DNA of 45,023 nucleotides. Origin: Pseudomonadota bacterium. Its GTDB lineage: Bacteria; Pseudomonadota; Alphaproteobacteria; Sphingomonadales; Sphingomonadaceae. Below, piece by piece: positions 13,824 to 21,420 of the stretch. Every line of letters starts with the position of its first letter. Position 1 is the first letter of the stretch. A program made the position numbers and the translations under genes. Under the pieces are notes generated by a model, which saw only the letters and a program-made list of their open reading frames with translations, was not told the DNA's origin and did not search any database. The stretch spans positions 1 through 45,023 of the forward strand of contig CAUJIW010000024.1 of the NCBI GenBank assembly GCA_963205175.1, in the 5' to 3' direction.

Positions 13824-14530
<707 letters not shown>

Positions 14531-14534
<4 letters not shown>

Positions 14535-15778
14535 GCGGCTCCCCGCAGAATATCGACCGGCTGCACCCGGCCACCCTTGCGGGCGGGCAGCCAGGCGGCG
14601 CCGACCGCCGAGCCCATGGCAAAGGCGATGGCCAGCACGAACTGGTCAACACCCCAGTACAGCGGCAGCTTGACAACCTCGGCGACACCCGGCGGCTTGA
14701 TGGGAATCTGCACCAGCACCCACATGATGAACATGCCGAGCAGCACGCCCAGCAAACTGCCGATGGCGCCAACGACGGCGCCCTCGATGACGAAGATGCG
14801 GCGGATGTCGCGGGCGTGGAAGCCCATCGATTTCAGGATGGCGATGTCGCGGGTCTTTTCCAGCACCACCGTCGAGATGACGTTGTAGATGCCGAAGGAC
14901 GCCACCACCAGGATCGCCAGAACGACGCTGTACATGATGATGTTGCGCACCAGCAGCAGGCTCATGATGTCCTCGCTCGCCTCCTGCCAGGATACCGCCT
15001 TGTAGCCGATGCGCCGCTCGATCTCGGCGGCGATGGCACGCGCCCGATAGGGGTCGTCGGCGCGCAGGATGAAGCTGTTGGCGATATTGGGCCTGTCCAT
15101 CAGCGCCTGCACCCGCTTGAGCGCCGCGAACGTCTGGGATTCATCGTAGGCCTGGTTGCCGGTACGGAACATGCCGACCACCTTGAGCGTGCGCACCTGC
15201 CCCTTGGGCGAGGCCAACAGCAGGTTGTCGCCCATCGAGATACGGTAGCGCTCCGCCAGACCCTCGCCGATGATGACGCCATTGGGGTTGGCGTCGAGAT
15301 CGTCGAGGGACCCCTTGGTGATGTCCTTCTCGATCGAGCTGACGCCCTTCATGCGCGCCGGCACCACACCGGAGAGGGTGACGCCGACATCGCGGCCAGC
15401 GAAGGTGATGATCGCCTGGCCGGCCAGCACCGGCGCCACCTGGATACCAGCGATGCTGTCCACCTGGGACAGCTTCGACTTGTACTGGCGGATGCCGCGC
15501 ACCTCGGTCTTGGGCTTGACGCTGCGGATTTCCACCGCGCCACCGGGGAACCGCCGTTCCGCCGGCTGCACCGGCGCCTGGCGGAACTCGTCCGACACCG
15601 TGACGTGCGGCTGGTTGTTGACCAGCCGGTCGAGAAAATCCTGCTCCGACCCCCGCATCAGCGACGACACGGCGAGAAAGAACGCCACCCCCAGCACGAT
15701 GCCCATCAGCGACACCAGCGTCTGCCGGGTGCGGCTGGTGAGATGGCTGAGCGCGATCTGGGTGTGGACGGAAACCAT
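14531..15778 (-). CDS. ABC transporter permease, FtsX/MacB family
   Basis: This is a 415-residue permease. It has the family layout: one N-terminal membrane helix (about residues 20-42), a large periplasmic domain (about 45-285), then three helices near 290-315, 340-370 and 375-400. SLMGIVLGVAFF at the start and VVLEKTRDIAILKSMGF plus FVIEGAVVGAIGSLLGVLLG near the end are typical of the FtsX domain. It is of single-unit type, without the fused ATPase seen in MacB. The gene lies between membrane fusion protein and ATPase with a four-base overlap to the latter. The substrate is unknown. Lipid, peptide or macrolide export are family possibilities. Confidence 0.92.
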
Positions 15779-15789
15779 GACCGGACGCC

Positions 15790-16836
15790 TCAGCCCGCCC
15801 TGGCGTTGGTTTCGGCCCCGTTCTTCAATGCGGTCTCGACCCGCACCCGCTGACCTTCCCGCAAGGTATCGGCCGGCGTCAGCACCAGGGTCTCGTCCCC
15901 TTTCAGGCCTTCAAGCACCTCGACGCTGTCGTCGCCGCGCGCGCCCAGCGTCACCGTCCGGCGTGTCAGCCTGCCATCCCGCACCAGCCACAACGCACTG
16001 TCGGCAACCGCCGAGGCCGGCACCAGCAGCGCGTTGGCCCGCTCGGCGACAATGATGTTGGTCTCGGCGGTCATGCCGATCTGCAGCGGCACGTCGGCAC
16101 CAAAGGTGATCCGCACCCGGTAGCTGCGGGCGGTGGAGTCGCCGCGCGGCGTCACTTCCTTCACCATCCCGTCGTAAACCGCGTCGGGGAAGGCATCCGC
16201 GCGGATCAGCACCTTCTGGCCGACCCGGATCAGCGGGATATCCTCCTCGTCCACCTCGGCCGCGATGCGCAGCGGCGCGCAGCAGGCCATGTAGAAGATC
16301 GGCTGGTTGACCGGCACATAATCGCCCACCTCGCCGTCGCGGCGGATCACCAGGCCGTCGGCCGGCGCCCTCAGCCACATGTAGCCGCGCTGGGCACGCG
16401 CCTGCTCGACGGCGGCACGGGCGGCATCACGCTCGGCACGCGCCGAATCCAGCGCCGCGCGGGTGGACCAGCCCTGCTGGAACAGCCGGGCGATGCGCTC
16501 GTGCTGCTGCCGGGCATAGGTGGCGCGCGCCTCCAGCTGCGCCATCGACGAAGCCAGATCATTGTCCTCCAGCCGCGCCATGACTTCGCCGGCCTTGACC
16601 CGGCGCCCCTCGTCGGTGCGCAGCTCGACCAGCCGTCCGGCGACGCGCGGCGCGATCCTGACCTCGACGCTGGGCTCAACCGTGCCGGTGGCGTAGACCG
16701 CCTGGATCGCCGGGCCGCGCTGCGGCGTCGCCACCGTCACGACCGGGGGGCCCAGCAGCCGCCAGGCGGCGAACGCGACCAGCGCCAGCACACCTGCCAA
16801 GACCAGCCACCGACCCAAGCCCTTGCCAGACATCAT
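15790..16836 (-). CDS. Membrane fusion protein (MacA/HlyD-type periplasmic adaptor)
   Basis: This is a 348-residue adaptor. I prefer ATG 16836 because GAGGGA lies about 9 bases upstream, although ATG 16854 is possible. One N-terminal membrane helix (LVLAGVLALVAFAAWRLL) precedes the periplasmic part. That part has a lipoyl/barrel-sandwich half-motif (VEVRIAPRVAGRLVEL), a short coiled-coil hairpin (about residues 95-160, rich in Ala, Arg and Gln), and a second lipoyl half (LRAPADGLVIRRDGEVG). Beta-barrel and membrane-proximal domains end the chain. The hairpin is short, as in ABC-type rather than RND-type adaptors. It is the first gene of the leftward set, 12 bp before the permease, so promoters for the set should lie in 16837-17012. 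Confidence 0.9.
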   Translation of the reverse strand: MMSGKGLGRWLVLAGVLALVAFAAWRLLGPPVVTVATPQRGPAIQAVYATGTVEPSVEVRIAPRVAGRLVELRTDEGRRVKAGEVMARLEDNDLASSMAQLEARATYARQQHERIARLFQQGWSTRAALDSARAERDAARAAVEQARAQRGYMWLRAPADGLVIRRDGEVGDYVPVNQPIFYMACCAPLRIAAEVDEEDIPLIRVGQKVLIRADAFPDAVYDGMVKEVTPRGDSTARSYRVRITFGADVPLQIGMTAETNIIVAERANALLVPASAVADSALWLVRDGRLTRRTVTLGARGDDSVEVLEGLKGDETLVLTPADTLREGQRVRVETALKNGAETNARAG

Positions 16837-17012
16837 TGTCGCACCATCCCTCATGTGGGCGGCACCTTAGCGCGACACGGCTCCGACGCCAGCCCTTGCA
16901 GCGCAACAAATCATGTCTGGATCCCGTCAGCGAGAGCCTGTGCGACGTTATTGCACAGGGAGTTGATCGATCTACCGGGCCGCACCCTGAGGACGCCTAC
17001 CCGGCACGAGCT

Positions 17013-17228
17013 TCAGTGCACACCGTCGGCGATCGCCTCCAGCGTCCGCACCCGCTCGCGCAGGGCGGTGAACTCGCTGGTGGAGCAGGCGAGCGCCGCT
17101 GCCTGTATGTCCAGTTCCCGATGCCGCAGACCCATCAGCCGGCGGATCGTCCACACCCACAGCCCGGCGCCGATCGACAGCACCCCCAGACTGAAGGCAA
17201 CACTCATCCATGCGATGGAATTCGCCAT
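17013..17228 (-). CDS. Small membrane/coiled-coil protein, last in psp operon
   Basis: This is a 71-residue protein whose start follows GGAGCGGGAACA. It has one N-terminal membrane segment (about residues 6-28) and a helical C-terminus. The tail TALRERVRTLEAIADG resembles the tails of the two genes upstream and of PspB. It is probably anchored in the inner membrane with the helix on the cytoplasmic side. It has no recognised family. It is the most distal gene of the leftward psp set, about 90 bp from the preceding one. Confidence 0.6.
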   Translation of the reverse strand: MANSIAWMSVAFSLGVLSIGAGLWVWTIRRLMGLRHRELDIQAAALACSTSEFTALRERVRTLEAIADGVH

Positions 17229-17320
17229 TGTTCCCGCTCCGATTAATCCGGCACGACGGGTGCCTCACCCGTCGTCCGCCAGACCCTCAACCCCGTCACC
17301 GGTACTGGTGCGGGGGAGGA

Positions 17321-17551
17321 TTATCCACGCAGACTGTCAATCTCGTCGGCCAGGCGCCTGGCTGGATCAATGGCCAGTTTCTCCAGCACCTGGACACGCT
17401 CATGCAACTGGTCAACCCGGTGCCTGAGGGCCGCCATTTCGGCCTCGGCAGCATCGCCGTCCCCGCTCTCCCGATGCCGGAAGCGTGCCTTGAGCACAGT
17501 GCCAATGGTTACGATGAGGACGATGCCAAGCACCATCTCGAACGGATTCAT
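17321..17551 (-). CDS. Small membrane/coiled-coil protein in psp operon
   Basis: This 76-residue protein starts at ATG 17551, well placed after GAGGGGAACATTC. A membrane segment (residues 4-22) is followed by a short basic linker. A helical tail, LRHRVDQLHERVQVLEKLA, follows with heptad spacing, ending in RRLADEIDSLRG. The same DEI(D/E)xLR ending occurs in the gene upstream and in PspC. The fold plan (one helix plus coiled coil) is that of PspB, which suggests an origin by duplication in this operon. Function unknown. Confidence 0.65.
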   Translation of the reverse strand: MNPFEMVLGIVLIVTIGTVLKARFRHRESGDGDAAEAEMAALRHRVDQLHERVQVLEKLAIDPARRLADEIDSLRG

Positions 17552-17609
17552 GAATGTTCCCCTCATGCGGCCCGCCGCTATTGGTCAGGGCCCAACCCCC
17601 TGGTCAATT

Positions 17610-17876
17610 TCAGTTCAGCGGCTCGTTACGAAGCCGCTCAATCTCATGAGCGAGATCGGCGGAGCGATCGGTGAGGATGCGCTCCAGCACCCGCACCCGC
17701 TGCTCCAGCCGCTCCACGGTGGCGCTGTTGCGCGCCGCCTGCTCGCTGGTCTGTTGCGCCAGAATGTCCAGCTGGCGCTCGCGCAGCTTGAACCAGCGGC
17801 GGGCAACGTCGGCCAGCACCCCGAACACCACGGGCACGGCGACGACAACCACGAAAAACCAGATCCACGGTGGCAT
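17610..17876 (-). CDS. PspB-like small membrane/coiled-coil protein
   Basis: This 88-residue protein starts after GGAGGGGTGAGG. The first 24 residues (MPPWIWFFVVVVAVPVVFGV) form a membrane helix. A basic stretch, RRWFKLRERQLD, and a long heptad-type helix follow. The tail VERLEQRVRVLERILTDRS and the ending LAHEIERLRNEP closely parallel the tail of PspB (LDARLHSIERILDAE) and the end of PspC (LSAEIDRLR). It follows pspC by 48 bp. I read it as a third PspB-type partner, with function inferred only from context. Confidence 0.7.
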   Translation of the reverse strand: MPPWIWFFVVVVAVPVVFGVLADVARRWFKLRERQLDILAQQTSEQAARNSATVERLEQRVRVLERILTDRSADLAHEIERLRNEPLN

Positions 17877-17924
17877 TGCCTCACCCCTCCTGGCTTCAAC
17901 CCCGCCCCGTCGACCCGGCCGCGC

Positions 17925-18302
17925 TCAGCGCAGCCGGTCGATCTCGGCCGACAGGCTGCGGTTCGACGACGTCATGTAGGCCTCGACATCGCGCAGGCGA
18001 CGATCAATGTCGCGGAAGCTGCCACGCGTGTCGCGGATCGTCACCGATGGCGAGGTCCGCACACGACGCCAGAAGGCCTGCTCGTCGGCGGGAATGTCAT
18101 AGAGCTCGCGTGGCTTGGCATCCGCGACAATGCCAATGATCGGGTAGATCAGGATCGGCCAGCCGCCGGCGAACAGCGTGAGCAGCACCACCGCCACCCG
18201 CACCCACATCACGTCGATGCCAAAGTAGTCGGCGAACCCGGCGCACACGCCCATCAGCTTGCCATTGCGCTTGTCGAGATAAAATTTGGTCCTGCTGATC
18301 AT
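17925..18302 (-). CDS. pspC: Phage shock protein C
   Basis: This 125-residue inner-membrane protein is of the PspC family. The PspC domain occupies residues 1-62, with KFYLDKRNGKLMGVCAGFADYFGID leading into a hydrophobic hairpin that ends at PIIGIVADAKP. The C-terminal part is polar and helical (FRDIDRRLRDVEAYM ... LSAEIDRLR). In E. coli, PspC with PspB senses envelope damage and binds PspA, freeing PspF. The start at 18302 follows AAGGGATC. The longer frame to 18338 overlaps pspB. pspB ends 17 bp before this start. Confidence 0.93.
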   Translation of the reverse strand: MISRTKFYLDKRNGKLMGVCAGFADYFGIDVMWVRVAVVLLTLFAGGWPILIYPIIGIVADAKPRELYDIPADEQAFWRRVRTSPSVTIRDTRGSFRDIDRRLRDVEAYMTSSNRSLSAEIDRLR

Positions 18303-18319
18303 CGTGGTGATCCCTTGTC

Positions 18320-18544
18320 TCAGTTCTCGCGCCGCCACTGAGGGTTTTCGGCATCGAGAATGCGTTCGATGGAATGGAGCCTGGCATCGAGCCGGCGGGC
18401 CGTTTCATGGAGATCGTCGAGCAACTGTTCATCGTCGCCGGAAATGGTGCGCATCCGCTTCCACTGGGTGACGTAGTGGAAAATCATCCCTGGCAGACCG
18501 ATGAACAGGATGCCGACGATCAGCACCGGCATGAGTTCGTCCAT
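18320..18544 (-). CDS. pspB: Phage shock protein B
   Basis: This is a 74-residue protein of the PspB type. A membrane helix (residues 5-27, LMPVLIVGILFIGLPGMIFHYV) is followed by a charged amphipathic helix, LHETARRLDARLHSIERILD. PspB cooperates with PspC in stress sensing at the inner membrane. It lies 12 bp after pspA and 17 bp before pspC, and a GGGGAT precedes the ATG. Length and position match the usual pspA-pspB-pspC order. Confidence 0.9.
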   Translation of the reverse strand: MDELMPVLIVGILFIGLPGMIFHYVTQWKRMRTISGDDEQLLDDLHETARRLDARLHSIERILDAENPQWRREN

Positions 18545-18556
18545 GTCGTATCCCCG

Positions 18557-19225
18557 TTACTTGCTGTCGCCGCCGACCTTGGCTTTGAGCGCCGCCAGCT
18601 CCGCCTCGACGGCATCACTGGCCTTCAGCTCGGCGAACTCTTCCTCCAGCGTCTTGGTCTTGCCGAGATCATAGGACTCAACACGACCTTCCGCCAGATC
18701 GACCCGCCGTTCCATCAGCGCGAACCGCTGGAAGGCCTCGTCGATCTTCGGGCTCGACATCATCCGGCGCATCCGCGACCGGTTTTCCAGTGTCTCCAGC
18801 CGGTTGAGGATGCTGGTCTGGCGCGTCCGCGCCTCGCGCAGCTTGGCCTCAAGCTTCTGGATATCCTCCTCATGCTTGGCCAGTGCTTCATCCAGCACGC
18901 TCATATCATGGAGGATCTGGTCGGCCATCTGGCCCAGCTTCTGCTTTTCGACCAGTGCGGCCTTGGCGAGATCCTCCCGCCCCTTCGACAGCGCCAGTTC
19001 GGCTTTTTCGGCCCACGATGACTGGGCGGCATCAAGCCGCTGCAGCGTACGCCGGGCCTCCTTCTGGTCGGCGATGGCACGGGCGGCGGAGGCGCGCACC
19101 TCCACCAGCGTTTCCTCCATCTCCAGGATGATCATGCGGATCATCTTGGCCGGATCCTCGGCCTTGTCGAGCAGGTCGCTGACGTTGGCCGAGATGATGT
19201 CGCCGAGGCGGGAAAAGATACCCAT
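18557..19225 (-). CDS. pspA: Phage shock protein A (PspA/IM30)
   Basis: This 222-residue protein of the ESCRT-III-like PspA/Vipp1 family is nearly all alpha-helical. It opens with the amphipathic membrane-binding helix MGIFSRLGDIISANVSDLLD, then EDPAKMIRMIILEMEETLVEVR, as in the family. Start 19225 is preferred over the longer frame to 19270 because MGIFSR is the family start. PspA binds and inhibits PspF when unstressed, and assembles on damaged membrane to preserve proton-motive force under stress. It is the second gene of the leftward transcript. The first is a short secreted peptide gene. Confidence 0.96.
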   Translation of the reverse strand: MGIFSRLGDIISANVSDLLDKAEDPAKMIRMIILEMEETLVEVRASAARAIADQKEARRTLQRLDAAQSSWAEKAELALSKGREDLAKAALVEKQKLGQMADQILHDMSVLDEALAKHEEDIQKLEAKLREARTRQTSILNRLETLENRSRMRRMMSSPKIDEAFQRFALMERRVDLAEGRVESYDLGKTKTLEEEFAELKASDAVEAELAALKAKVGGDSK

Positions 19226-19294
19226 GGACAAGCTCCTACTGGTTGATTTCTGAGCGGGCGGACCCGCCATGACGGAAAAGCGGACGCCCGCGCC

Positions 19295-19465
19295 TTACAG
19301 CGCGAACAGGATGCGACCATGCGCCGGAGCCGGCACCGGATTGGCGGCGCCATTGGCCGCGGCCGGACCGGCGGCGATGGTGAGCGCGAGACCGCCGGCG
19401 ATCAGCGCCGCGAGGCCGCACAACAGGGTCTGCTTGATGGACCCGATCAGGCTGGTGGTGGTCAT
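19295..19465 (-). CDS. Short secreted or membrane peptide, first gene after the sigma-54 promoter
   Basis: This is a 56-residue open frame with GAGGGG 8 bases before ATG 19465. It has a basic N-terminal part and a hydrophobic core (LLCGLAALIAGGLALTIAAG). A possible signal-peptidase site, PAAANG, follows, leaving a mature peptide of about 20 residues (AANPVPAPAHGRILFAL). It lies between the sigma-54 promoter and pspA, so it would be the first product of the psp transcript. No homologue is known to me. It may be an unrecognised psp component or a leader peptide. Confidence 0.55.
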   Translation of the reverse strand: MTTTSLIGSIKQTLLCGLAALIAGGLALTIAAGPAAANGAANPVPAPAHGRILFAL

Positions 19466-19524
19466 TGGTCGTCCCCTCATCGAAATTGTGATGCGGCATC
19501 CGTGCCGCTGATGCCAAGGGTAAC

Positions 19525-19540
19525 AGCAGGAACCGTGCCA
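19525..19540 (-). promoter_or_regulatory. Sigma-54 (RpoN) promoter of the psp operon
   Basis: On the minus strand, TGGCACG (19540-19534), GTTC, then CTGCT (19529-19525) matches the sigma-54 consensus TGGCACG-N4-TTGCW with one difference. The -24 GG and -12 GC are both present at the exact spacing. Transcription should start near 19514, about 50 bases before the first start codon. The divergent pspF encodes the matching activator. Confidence 0.85.
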
Positions 19541-19615
19541 ACTCGCGACGGCGCTTCAACGCATTGTTTTTCATGCATAATATGAAGACGACCTTGCAGG
19601 CGACGAAAAATAGAT

Positions 19616-19652
19616 TTGCCAATATTTAGCGTTATTTGCTAATCTTTGGCAA
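19616..19652. promoter_or_regulatory. Twin PspF-type upstream activating sites
   Basis: Two 13-bp inverted repeats of the form GCYAA-N3-TTRGC lie at 19618-19630 (GCCAA-TAT-TTAGC) and 19638-19650 (GCTAA-TCT-TTGGC). Their centres are 20 bp apart, two DNA turns. Together they form one larger perfect-armed palindrome. They lie about 110 and 130 bp upstream of the expected psp transcription start. The second abuts the pspF start codon. This is the spacing expected of paired enhancer sites for PspF, and also suits negative autoregulation of pspF. Confidence 0.7.
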
Positions 19653-20689
19653 TGGCACCGGACATTCAGCGCCTCATCGGCCAGAGCGGCCCCTTCCTCG
19701 ACGTGCTGGAGCATGCCTCCCGCATCGCGGCCCTCAACCGGCCGGTGCTGGTGATCGGCGAGCGCGGCACTGGCAAGGAGCTGATCGGCGAGCGCCTGCA
19801 CCGACTGTCGCCGCGCTGGGAGGAGCCGTTCATCCAGCTCAACTGCGCCGCCCTGCCGGAGAATCTGATCGACGCCGAGCTGTTCGGTTATGAGCCGGGC
19901 GCCTTCACCGGCGCCACCCGCGCTCGCGCCGGCCGGGTCGAGGAAGCCGACGGCGGCACCCTGTTTCTGGACGTGATCGCCACCCTGTCGGCCCAGGCCC
20001 AGGAGAAACTGCTGCGGGTGATCGAATACGGCCAGCTGCAGCGACTGGGCGCCAACAAGACCATCGAGGTCGACGTACGGGTGATCGGCGCCACCAACGA
20101 GGATCTGCCGGGACTGGTGGAGCGCGGCCGCTTCCGCGCCGATCTGCTCGACCGGCTGTCGTTCGACGTCCTGACCCTGCCACCGCTGCGGGCGCGCGCC
20201 GACGACATCCCGTTGCTGGCCGATTTCTTCGGCCGGCGCATGGCGCTGGAGCTGGGCTGGGACGGCTTCCCCGGCTTCACGGCCGAGGCCGCCACCGCCC
20301 TGAACCAGCAGAGCTGGCCCGGCAACGTGCGCGAACTGAAGAACGTGGTGGAGCGCGCGGTTTACCGCTGGGGCGACGCGGAAAACCCGGTGGCGCACAT
20401 CGTCTTCGATCCCTTCGAGTCGCCGTTCCGCCCCGCCAGCCCATCATCCCCGACGGCTGTGCCCCGGCCCGTCACAGACGACTCGACGCCTCCCCTCGCC
20501 TCCCTGGCCGGCGCTCCTGCCAGTCCTCCGGTCCCGGACTTTCGCAAGGCGGTGGCGGCCTACGAGGCCAGCATCCTGTCAGCAGCCCTGGCACGGGCAC
20601 GCTTCAACCAGCGCGAGGCTGCCGCCGCGCTCAACCTCAGCTACGACCAGTTGCGCCATGCGCTGAAAAAACACCGGCTGCTGGACTGA
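19652..20689 (+). CDS. pspF: Psp operon transcriptional activator PspF (sigma-54-dependent)
   Basis: This 345-residue enhancer-binding protein lacks an N-terminal receiver domain, as PspF does. The AAA+ domain fills residues 1-245, starting IQRLIGQSGPFLDVLEHAS. It has Walker A GERGTGKE, the sigma-54-contacting loop EPGAFTGATRA, Walker B GGTLFLDVIA and WPGNVRELKNVVERA. After a Pro/Ser-rich linker, a Fis-type helix-turn-helix (REAAAALNLSYDQLRHALKKH) ends the chain. No ribosome-binding site is visible before ATG 19652 or the TTG at 19646, so expression may be low. It is divergent from the psp operon and probably held inactive by PspA. Confidence 0.94.
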   Translation: MAPDIQRLIGQSGPFLDVLEHASRIAALNRPVLVIGERGTGKELIGERLHRLSPRWEEPFIQLNCAALPENLIDAELFGYEPGAFTGATRARAGRVEEADGGTLFLDVIATLSAQAQEKLLRVIEYGQLQRLGANKTIEVDVRVIGATNEDLPGLVERGRFRADLLDRLSFDVLTLPPLRARADDIPLLADFFGRRMALELGWDGFPGFTAEAATALNQQSWPGNVRELKNVVERAVYRWGDAENPVAHIVFDPFESPFRPASPSSPTAVPRPVTDDSTPPLASLAGAPASPPVPDFRKAVAAYEASILSAALARARFNQREAAAALNLSYDQLRHALKKHRLLD

Positions 20690-20820: not shown

Positions 20821-21420
20821 ATGGCATTCACCCTGCCTGAACTGCCCTACGCGCCGACGGCGCTTGAGCCGCACATGTCGGCCAACACCTTCAGCTTCCA
20901 CCATGCCAAGCACCACAACGCCTATGTGGTGAACCTCAACAACCTGCTGGCCGGCAAGCCACTGGCCGAGGCCGATCTCGAAACGGTGATCAAGGAAGCC
21001 GCCAAGGATCCGGCGATGGCCGGCGTGTTCAACAACGCCGCGCAGGTGTGGAACCACACCTTCTTCTGGAACAGCATGAAGCCGGGTGGCGGCGGCAAGC
21101 CGACCGGCGCCATCGCCGCCAAGATCGACGCCGACCTCGGCGGCTATGATGCCTTCGTCGAGCAGTTCAAGGCCGCCGCCACCACCCAGTTCGGCTCGGG
21201 CTGGGCCTGGCTGGTGCTGGAGAACGGCAAGCTGAAGGTCACCAAGACCGGCAATGCCGACCTGCCGCTGGTGCATGGCCAGACCGCGCTGCTGACCGTC
21301 GACGTGTGGGAACATGCCTACTACCTCGACTACCAGAACCGCCGGCCGGATTTCGTGCAGGCCTACCTCGACCATCTGGTCAACTGGGACTTCGCCAACG
21401 CCAACCTGGCCTCGGCGTAA
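20821..21420 (+). CDS. sodB: Iron-type superoxide dismutase
   Basis: This 199-residue cytoplasmic enzyme converts superoxide to oxygen and hydrogen peroxide. Metal ligands are recognised in FHHAKHHNAYV, VWNHTFFWNSM and DVWEHAYYLDYQ. The pattern FNNAAQVWNH, with GSGWAWLV, is usual for the Fe type, although Mn or cambialistic use cannot be excluded from sequence alone. The ATG follows GAGGAGG at 6-10 bases, a strong site. A terminator lies 44 bp after the stop. Confidence 0.95.
   Translation: MAFTLPELPYAPTALEPHMSANTFSFHHAKHHNAYVVNLNNLLAGKPLAEADLETVIKEAAKDPAMAGVFNNAAQVWNHTFFWNSMKPGGGGKPTGAIAAKIDADLGGYDAFVEQFKAAATTQFGSGWAWLVLENGKLKVTKTGNADLPLVHGQTALLTVDVWEHAYYLDYQNRRPDFVQAYLDHLVNWDFANANLASA

Follow-up and report, generated by a model that had tools for sequence, protein, structure and literature searches.

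The psp locus of the window analysed here, a 45,023-nt stretch of DNA from a member of the Sphingomonadaceae, continues beyond pspC, which raises the question of what the small genes behind pspC encode and whether they belong to the Psp system. The core genes were recognised by models scoring above their cut-offs: pspF, encoding the sigma54 enhancer-binding activator (19646..20689, + strand; TIGR02974, E = 1.1e-143), and, divergent from it on the − strand, pspA (18557..19225; TIGR02977, E = 1.6e-82), pspB (18320..18544; PF06667, E = 6.6e-26; TIGR02976, E = 2.1e-21) and pspC (17925..18299; TIGR02978, E = 3e-35). The start of pspC is uncertain between ATC, GTG and ATG, with the ATG at 18302-18300 adding one residue. 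The original prediction, which covered 17013-18544 and so left pspA outside, had placed three small genes of 88, 76 and 71 residues after pspABC, and all three were found intact. They follow pspA, pspB and pspC on the − strand as ORF88 (17610..17876; 88 aa), ORF76 (17321..17551; 76 aa, or 81 aa if an upstream ATG is taken as the start) and ORF71 (17013..17228; 71 aa), and are separated from pspC and from each other by 48, 58 and 92 nt (calculated from the coordinates). A purine-rich, Shine-Dalgarno-like stretch precedes the start of each. The possibility that they are spurious open reading frames was rejected, as the frames are open and are kept across some 57 genera.

A predicted sigma54-type promoter (TGGCACGGTTCCTGC; 19526..19540, − strand) lies 315 nt upstream of pspA and occurs only once in the window. 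A pattern search showed that 100 of the 115 psp loci have a TGGC-N8-TGC site 5' of pspA, and rpoN was found in the source genome. With a divergent pspF, a sigma54 promoter before pspA and closely spaced genes, the locus has the layout of a sigma54/PspF-controlled psp operon. A search of 16500-19800 gave no sigma70-type promoter and no terminator-like site, thus pspA through ORF71 likely form one operon.

Several further features were observed within and around this operon. The 92-nt gap between ORF76 and ORF71 (17229-17320, − strand) is predicted to form two strong hairpins with no T-run (−50.1 kcal/mol, z −3.8; 1 of 200 shuffles was equally good), which might serve in RNA processing or attenuation. 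A 56-residue ORF containing a single hydrophobic stretch (MTTTSLIGSIKQTLLCGLAALIAGGLALTIAAGPAAANGAANPVPAPAHGRILFAL; 19295-19465, − strand) is located downstream of the sigma54 site and ahead of pspA. A similar ORF of 40-70 residues, often with a terminal ELA, occupies this position in many Sphingomonadaceae loci, and its counterpart in Sphingomonas parapaucimobilis is annotated as a hypothetical protein; in loci of other families the position is taken by a different small ORF. Downstream of the small genes, 13824-16854 (− strand) appears by eye from its ORFs to encode an HlyD/MacA-like protein, an FtsX/MacB-like permease and an ABC ATPase. A superoxide dismutase-like gene, also recognised by eye, follows pspF (20821-21420, + strand), and a superoxide dismutase likewise adjoins pspF in S. 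parapaucimobilis.

In order to establish how widespread the additional genes are, 114 psp loci were fetched and the genes after pspC were chained. By its own terms, the original prediction would have been refuted had relatives lacked any conserved gene at these positions; it survived this check, as at least one extra gene follows pspC in 63 of the 64 loci from the family (GTDB Sphingomonadaceae), in largely fixed order. Their number ranges from none (1 locus) through 1-3 (15 loci) and 4 (23 loci) to 5-8 (25 loci), with a mean of 4.2, a commonest value of 4 and a maximum of 8. A relative of ORF88 is present in 52 of 59 family genomes (genera), and the genera among the named GTDB loci include Sphingomonas, Sphingopyxis, Sphingobium, Novosphingobium, Hephaestia, Stakelama, Pacificimonas and Altererythrobacter. 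The two family genomes without pspA (G017 and G035) also gave no ORF88-type match. In the annotated record of S. parapaucimobilis, the three genes after pspC (classes H, A2 and Z) are all labelled as hypothetical proteins.

The array genes fall into five classes with a largely constant order of H, Y, A1, A2 and Z, some clades having more A1-like genes in front; classes were delimited using motifs and the best profile, and for divergent genes the assignment to H/Y or A1 is approximate. ORF88 belongs to class A1, ORF76 to class A2 and ORF71, the final array gene, to class Z. Class Z closes the array in 57 of 63 loci and is never found at another position, while A2 is next to last in most family loci. 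Spacing is tight, with gaps of at most 60 nt for 258 of 271 array genes, 87 of which either abut or overlap their neighbour. Only 2 of the 271 find their best match within their own locus, indicating that the duplications are old and that the classes are orthologous across genera. Recent tandem amplification or gene conversion in the source genome was rejected on the same count. By these comparisons, the expansion consists of distinct paralogs of long standing that occur throughout the family; it is neither specific to one genome nor recent.

Outside the Sphingomonadaceae, a plain pspABC with pspB and pspC only is the usual arrangement in the order and class. The exceptions include a second PspB in one locus (L092) and, in another family of the class, two loci (L240, L241) in which adjacent genes combine similar anchors with one PspC-type and one PspB-type tail. 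Four loci from one other family of the order (L101, L111, L113, L133) carry an A2-like gene together with a tail-less mini-PspC (62-84 aa), which stands beside the normal pspC, downstream of it; in L074 and L090 a tail-less mini-PspC sits between pspB and pspC. The PspC domain and its tail therefore appear to be separable in this order too. Sampling across the phylum also revealed single-anchor proteins with an LExIVTD-type tail in genomes from beyond the class (L230-L237, L242-L247), and no pspA, pspB or pspC was found within about 2 kb of these genes. The anchor-plus-tail design thus seems to be wider than the Sphingomonadaceae, and the orderly array seems special to that family.

Hydropathy analysis showed that ORF88, ORF76 and ORF71 each have one N-terminal hydrophobic segment with a K/R-rich stretch immediately after it. 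They thereby share the single N-terminal membrane helix of PspB and its helical tail, which in the three proteins is charged. In 265 of the 271 array proteins the region following the membrane segment is richer in K/R than the region preceding it, so by the positive-inside rule the tails would be cytoplasmic, as for PspB. An AlphaFold2 single-chain model, which is silent on partners, renders ORF88 as one helix over residues 3-84 (pLDDT 84.5) and fits an anchored coiled-coil strand.

The tails are the conserved part of these proteins. The strings quoted in the original prediction, RVRVLERIL for ORF88 and RLHSIERIL for PspB, are present as stated, and ORF76 (RVQVLEKLA) and ORF71 (RVRTLEAIA) have corresponding strings. 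An ending had also been proposed to be common to two of the new genes and PspC. This sharing holds for ORF88 (HEIERLR), ORF76 (DEIDSLR) and PspC (AEIDRLR), but the pattern is xEI(D/E)xLR rather than (D/E)EI(D/E)xLR. The tails of the extra proteins, which the original prediction called PspB-like, also end in the manner of PspC and not only of PspB. The mean frequency of the commonest residue is higher in the tail than in the anchor and linker for A1 (0.73 vs 0.48), A2 (0.65 vs 0.52) and Z (0.88 vs 0.49), and the alignments of these three classes contain residues that are invariant across genera. Linkers differ between classes, with that of class Y carrying an NGYPL segment. By sequence, a conserved tail module of 20-30 residues is common to the array proteins and PspB, and its last part seems to be common to the end of PspC as well.

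Whether the resemblance to PspB and PspC exceeds chance was examined with standard models and independent profiles. ORF88 and ORF76 match TIGR02976 (PspB) at E = 4.9e-6 (26.7 bits) and E = 0.0019 (18.4 bits), below the cut-off of 51.7, and PF06667 (PspB) at 10.1 and 17.9 bits, below its cut-off of 25.6; ORF71 matches neither. ORF88 also matches the end of TIGR02978 (PspC; E = 0.0023), no match to the PspC domain PF04024 was found in any of the three, and no Pfam or NCBIfam model scores above its cut-off for any array class. Profiles of PspB, PspC and the PspC tail were built solely from other-family loci without an array, plus Escherichia coli K-12. At E ≤ 0.01 they matched 91, 108 and 98 of 280 array genes, respectively, and 0 of 5,442 other ORFs in the family's loci. 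The 280 genes had been gathered by iterated profiles seeded with the window proteins and are not an independent sample, hence it is the lack of matches among the other ORFs that carries the information here. Profile-profile alignment (hhalign) agreed: A1 and A2 aligned with other-family PspB at 96% over 63-68 columns, and with the PspC tail at 44% and 84%, respectively, while the H and Y classes reached 90-92% with the PspC tail. Decoys (reversed profiles or PspA) reached at most 39%, this value coming from one reversed decoy, and PspA at most 4%. Class Z aligned with A1 and A2 at 86-93% and with PspB and PspC at only 5-7% (PspB 7%).

Because profiles free of any array match the array genes only, these comparisons identify ORF88 and ORF76 as divergent members of the PspB superfamily whose tails end in the PspC manner. 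ORF71 is tied to PspB and PspC only indirectly, by way of ORF88 and ORF76; its class alignment, the last position of its class and profile comparison to those two place it in the array. For ORF88 and ORF76, independent profiles and profile-profile alignment both support the proposal that a PspB-like helical partner with a membrane anchor was duplicated, and the link extends to ORF71 only through them. Naturally fused genes, joining array members to one another or to PspB or PspC, would have spoken for contact, but none occurred in 115 loci.

What might such an array do? We give about an even chance to the reading that ORF88, ORF76 and ORF71, as old PspB-superfamily paralogs at the 3' end of a sigma54/PspF-driven psp operon, widen the PspBC switch. 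Upon release of PspF, the array proteins would be made as co-induced inner-membrane anchors, presenting PspB/PspC-type docking helices to PspC, PspB or PspA. Their tails could form coiled coils with the homologous PspB and PspC tails and/or bind PspA. The array might then set the amount of PspC tail that is free to take PspA from PspF, or might give PspA additional membrane docking sites, and the different anchors may be tuned to different membrane damage or partners. Given that copies of the tail on anchors of their own lie in the same operon, competition or cooperation with the PspB/PspC tail would be the simplest outcome, and we consider the chances of this to be roughly balanced.

Several observations favour a widened switch: array-free PspB/PspC-tail profiles match array genes only; conservation lies in the tail rather than the anchor; the K/R bias and short gaps are consistent, and the genomes without pspA gave no ORF88-type match; and L240 and L241 place PspC-type and PspB-type tails on similar anchors. 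In E. coli the leucine-zipper region of PspC is required for interaction with PspA (PMC3068692), and the tail module that the array proteins seem to have in common with PspB and PspC lies at or beside such functional regions. PspB and PspC form an inner-membrane complex in Yersinia. However, PspB-PspC binding in an E. coli two-hybrid assay needed the membrane segments and not the leucine zippers (PMC3068692), so proteins with the same tail do not necessarily pair through it. Also weighing against a switch role are the tail of ORF71, which is short and without detectable direct similarity to PspB or PspC, and the fact that PspB and PspC suffice in E. coli and in most other families. A combinatorial Psp sensor, in which paralogous anchors tuned to different membrane states or damaged partners compete through one tail code for PspC and PspA, is doubtful; if it were true, one operon would read several kinds of inner-membrane stress.

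Other explanations must be weighed against a widened PspBC switch. The array proteins could instead form homotypic or mixed coiled-coil patches that stabilise the inner membrane or engage damaging proteins, leaving PspA-PspF unaffected. PspBC have a protective role separate from regulation, acting against mislocalised secretins (PMC5596341), and a scaffold of this kind would also suit the distal, effector end of the operon and the Gammaproteobacteria in which similar proteins of anchor and tail are encoded at a distance from psp genes and a role in PspA-PspF is less obvious. Its tail module, however, seems to be the very one of PspB and PspC, and no ORF88-type gene was found in the two family genomes that lack pspA; we regard the scaffold as fairly unlikely. 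It is improbable that the genes arose by psp duplication and now serve other partners with the tail as a generic oligomerisation helix, given that they nearly always stay close behind pspC and keep their order throughout the family. The differing linkers of the classes (class Y, for example, has the NGYPL segment), the old divergence seen in the paucity of own-locus best matches and the barely detectable relation of class Z to PspB would nevertheless fit such a history.

The resemblance might also be one of composition, between charged low-complexity helices without common origin. Charged helices do yield spurious matches, weak Pfam matches to unrelated coiled coils were seen, and one reversed decoy reached 39%. 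Yet the independent profiles matched none of the other ORFs, PspA, itself a coiled-coil protein, stayed at 4% or less in the profile comparison, and residues are invariant across genera, which together make chance look-alikes very improbable.

Whichever role the array has, it makes the part played by the PspB/PspC tail testable. Most knowledge of the Psp response comes from enterobacteria, which have a single PspB and a single PspC. With around four more anchored copies of the tail in nearly every member, the family offers a natural variant series that would reveal invariant residues, exchangeable anchors and losable copies, and suggests a larger sensor complex than that of E. coli. It also provides a predicted function class for conserved genes annotated as hypothetical in S. 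parapaucimobilis. Zymomonas mobilis, an industrial ethanol producer, is placed near the Sphingomonadaceae in the NCBI taxonomy. Ethanol stress increases psp gene expression in this organism (PMC3495753), and the array may therefore be relevant to stress tolerance.

The type of event is already known. PspB duplicates in a psp operon have been noted in one sentence with one example, along with a divergent PspB domain ending PspC (PMC11237479); these are likewise extra PspB genes beside pspABC, and the main text of that report does not give their classes, gene order, taxonomic extent or age. Another survey reports many PspC paralogs and, in the parts consulted, describes no PspB array (PMC9239133). 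A literature search for Sphingomonas or Sphingomonadales with PspB or the psp operon found nothing, and the extent and organisation of the array appear not to have been described in the literature consulted. Gammaproteobacterial PspD and PspG are likewise small extra proteins of the psp regulon, and PspG is an inner-membrane protein. With the C-terminal tail of PspC (TIGR02978) the array proteins seem to share the tail module up to the EI(D/E)xLR end in Sphingomonadaceae, the counterpart of which in E. coli PspC is ETRLREMERYVTSDTFTLRSRFRQL; unlike PspC, they have a single anchor and no PspC domain (PF04024). PspB (PF06667/TIGR02976) likewise has one N-terminal membrane helix followed by K/R residues and a helical tail with an RxxxLExI-type motif, and is also encoded in the psp operon. 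The D-A-E-x-P-x-W-R type ending of PspB (DAENPQWR in the window, DAEHPNWR in E. coli) is absent from ORF88, ORF76 and ORF71, and the array tails instead extend to L..EI(D/E)xLR. Unlike a plain PspB, moreover, they occur as several classes per operon alongside a true pspB.
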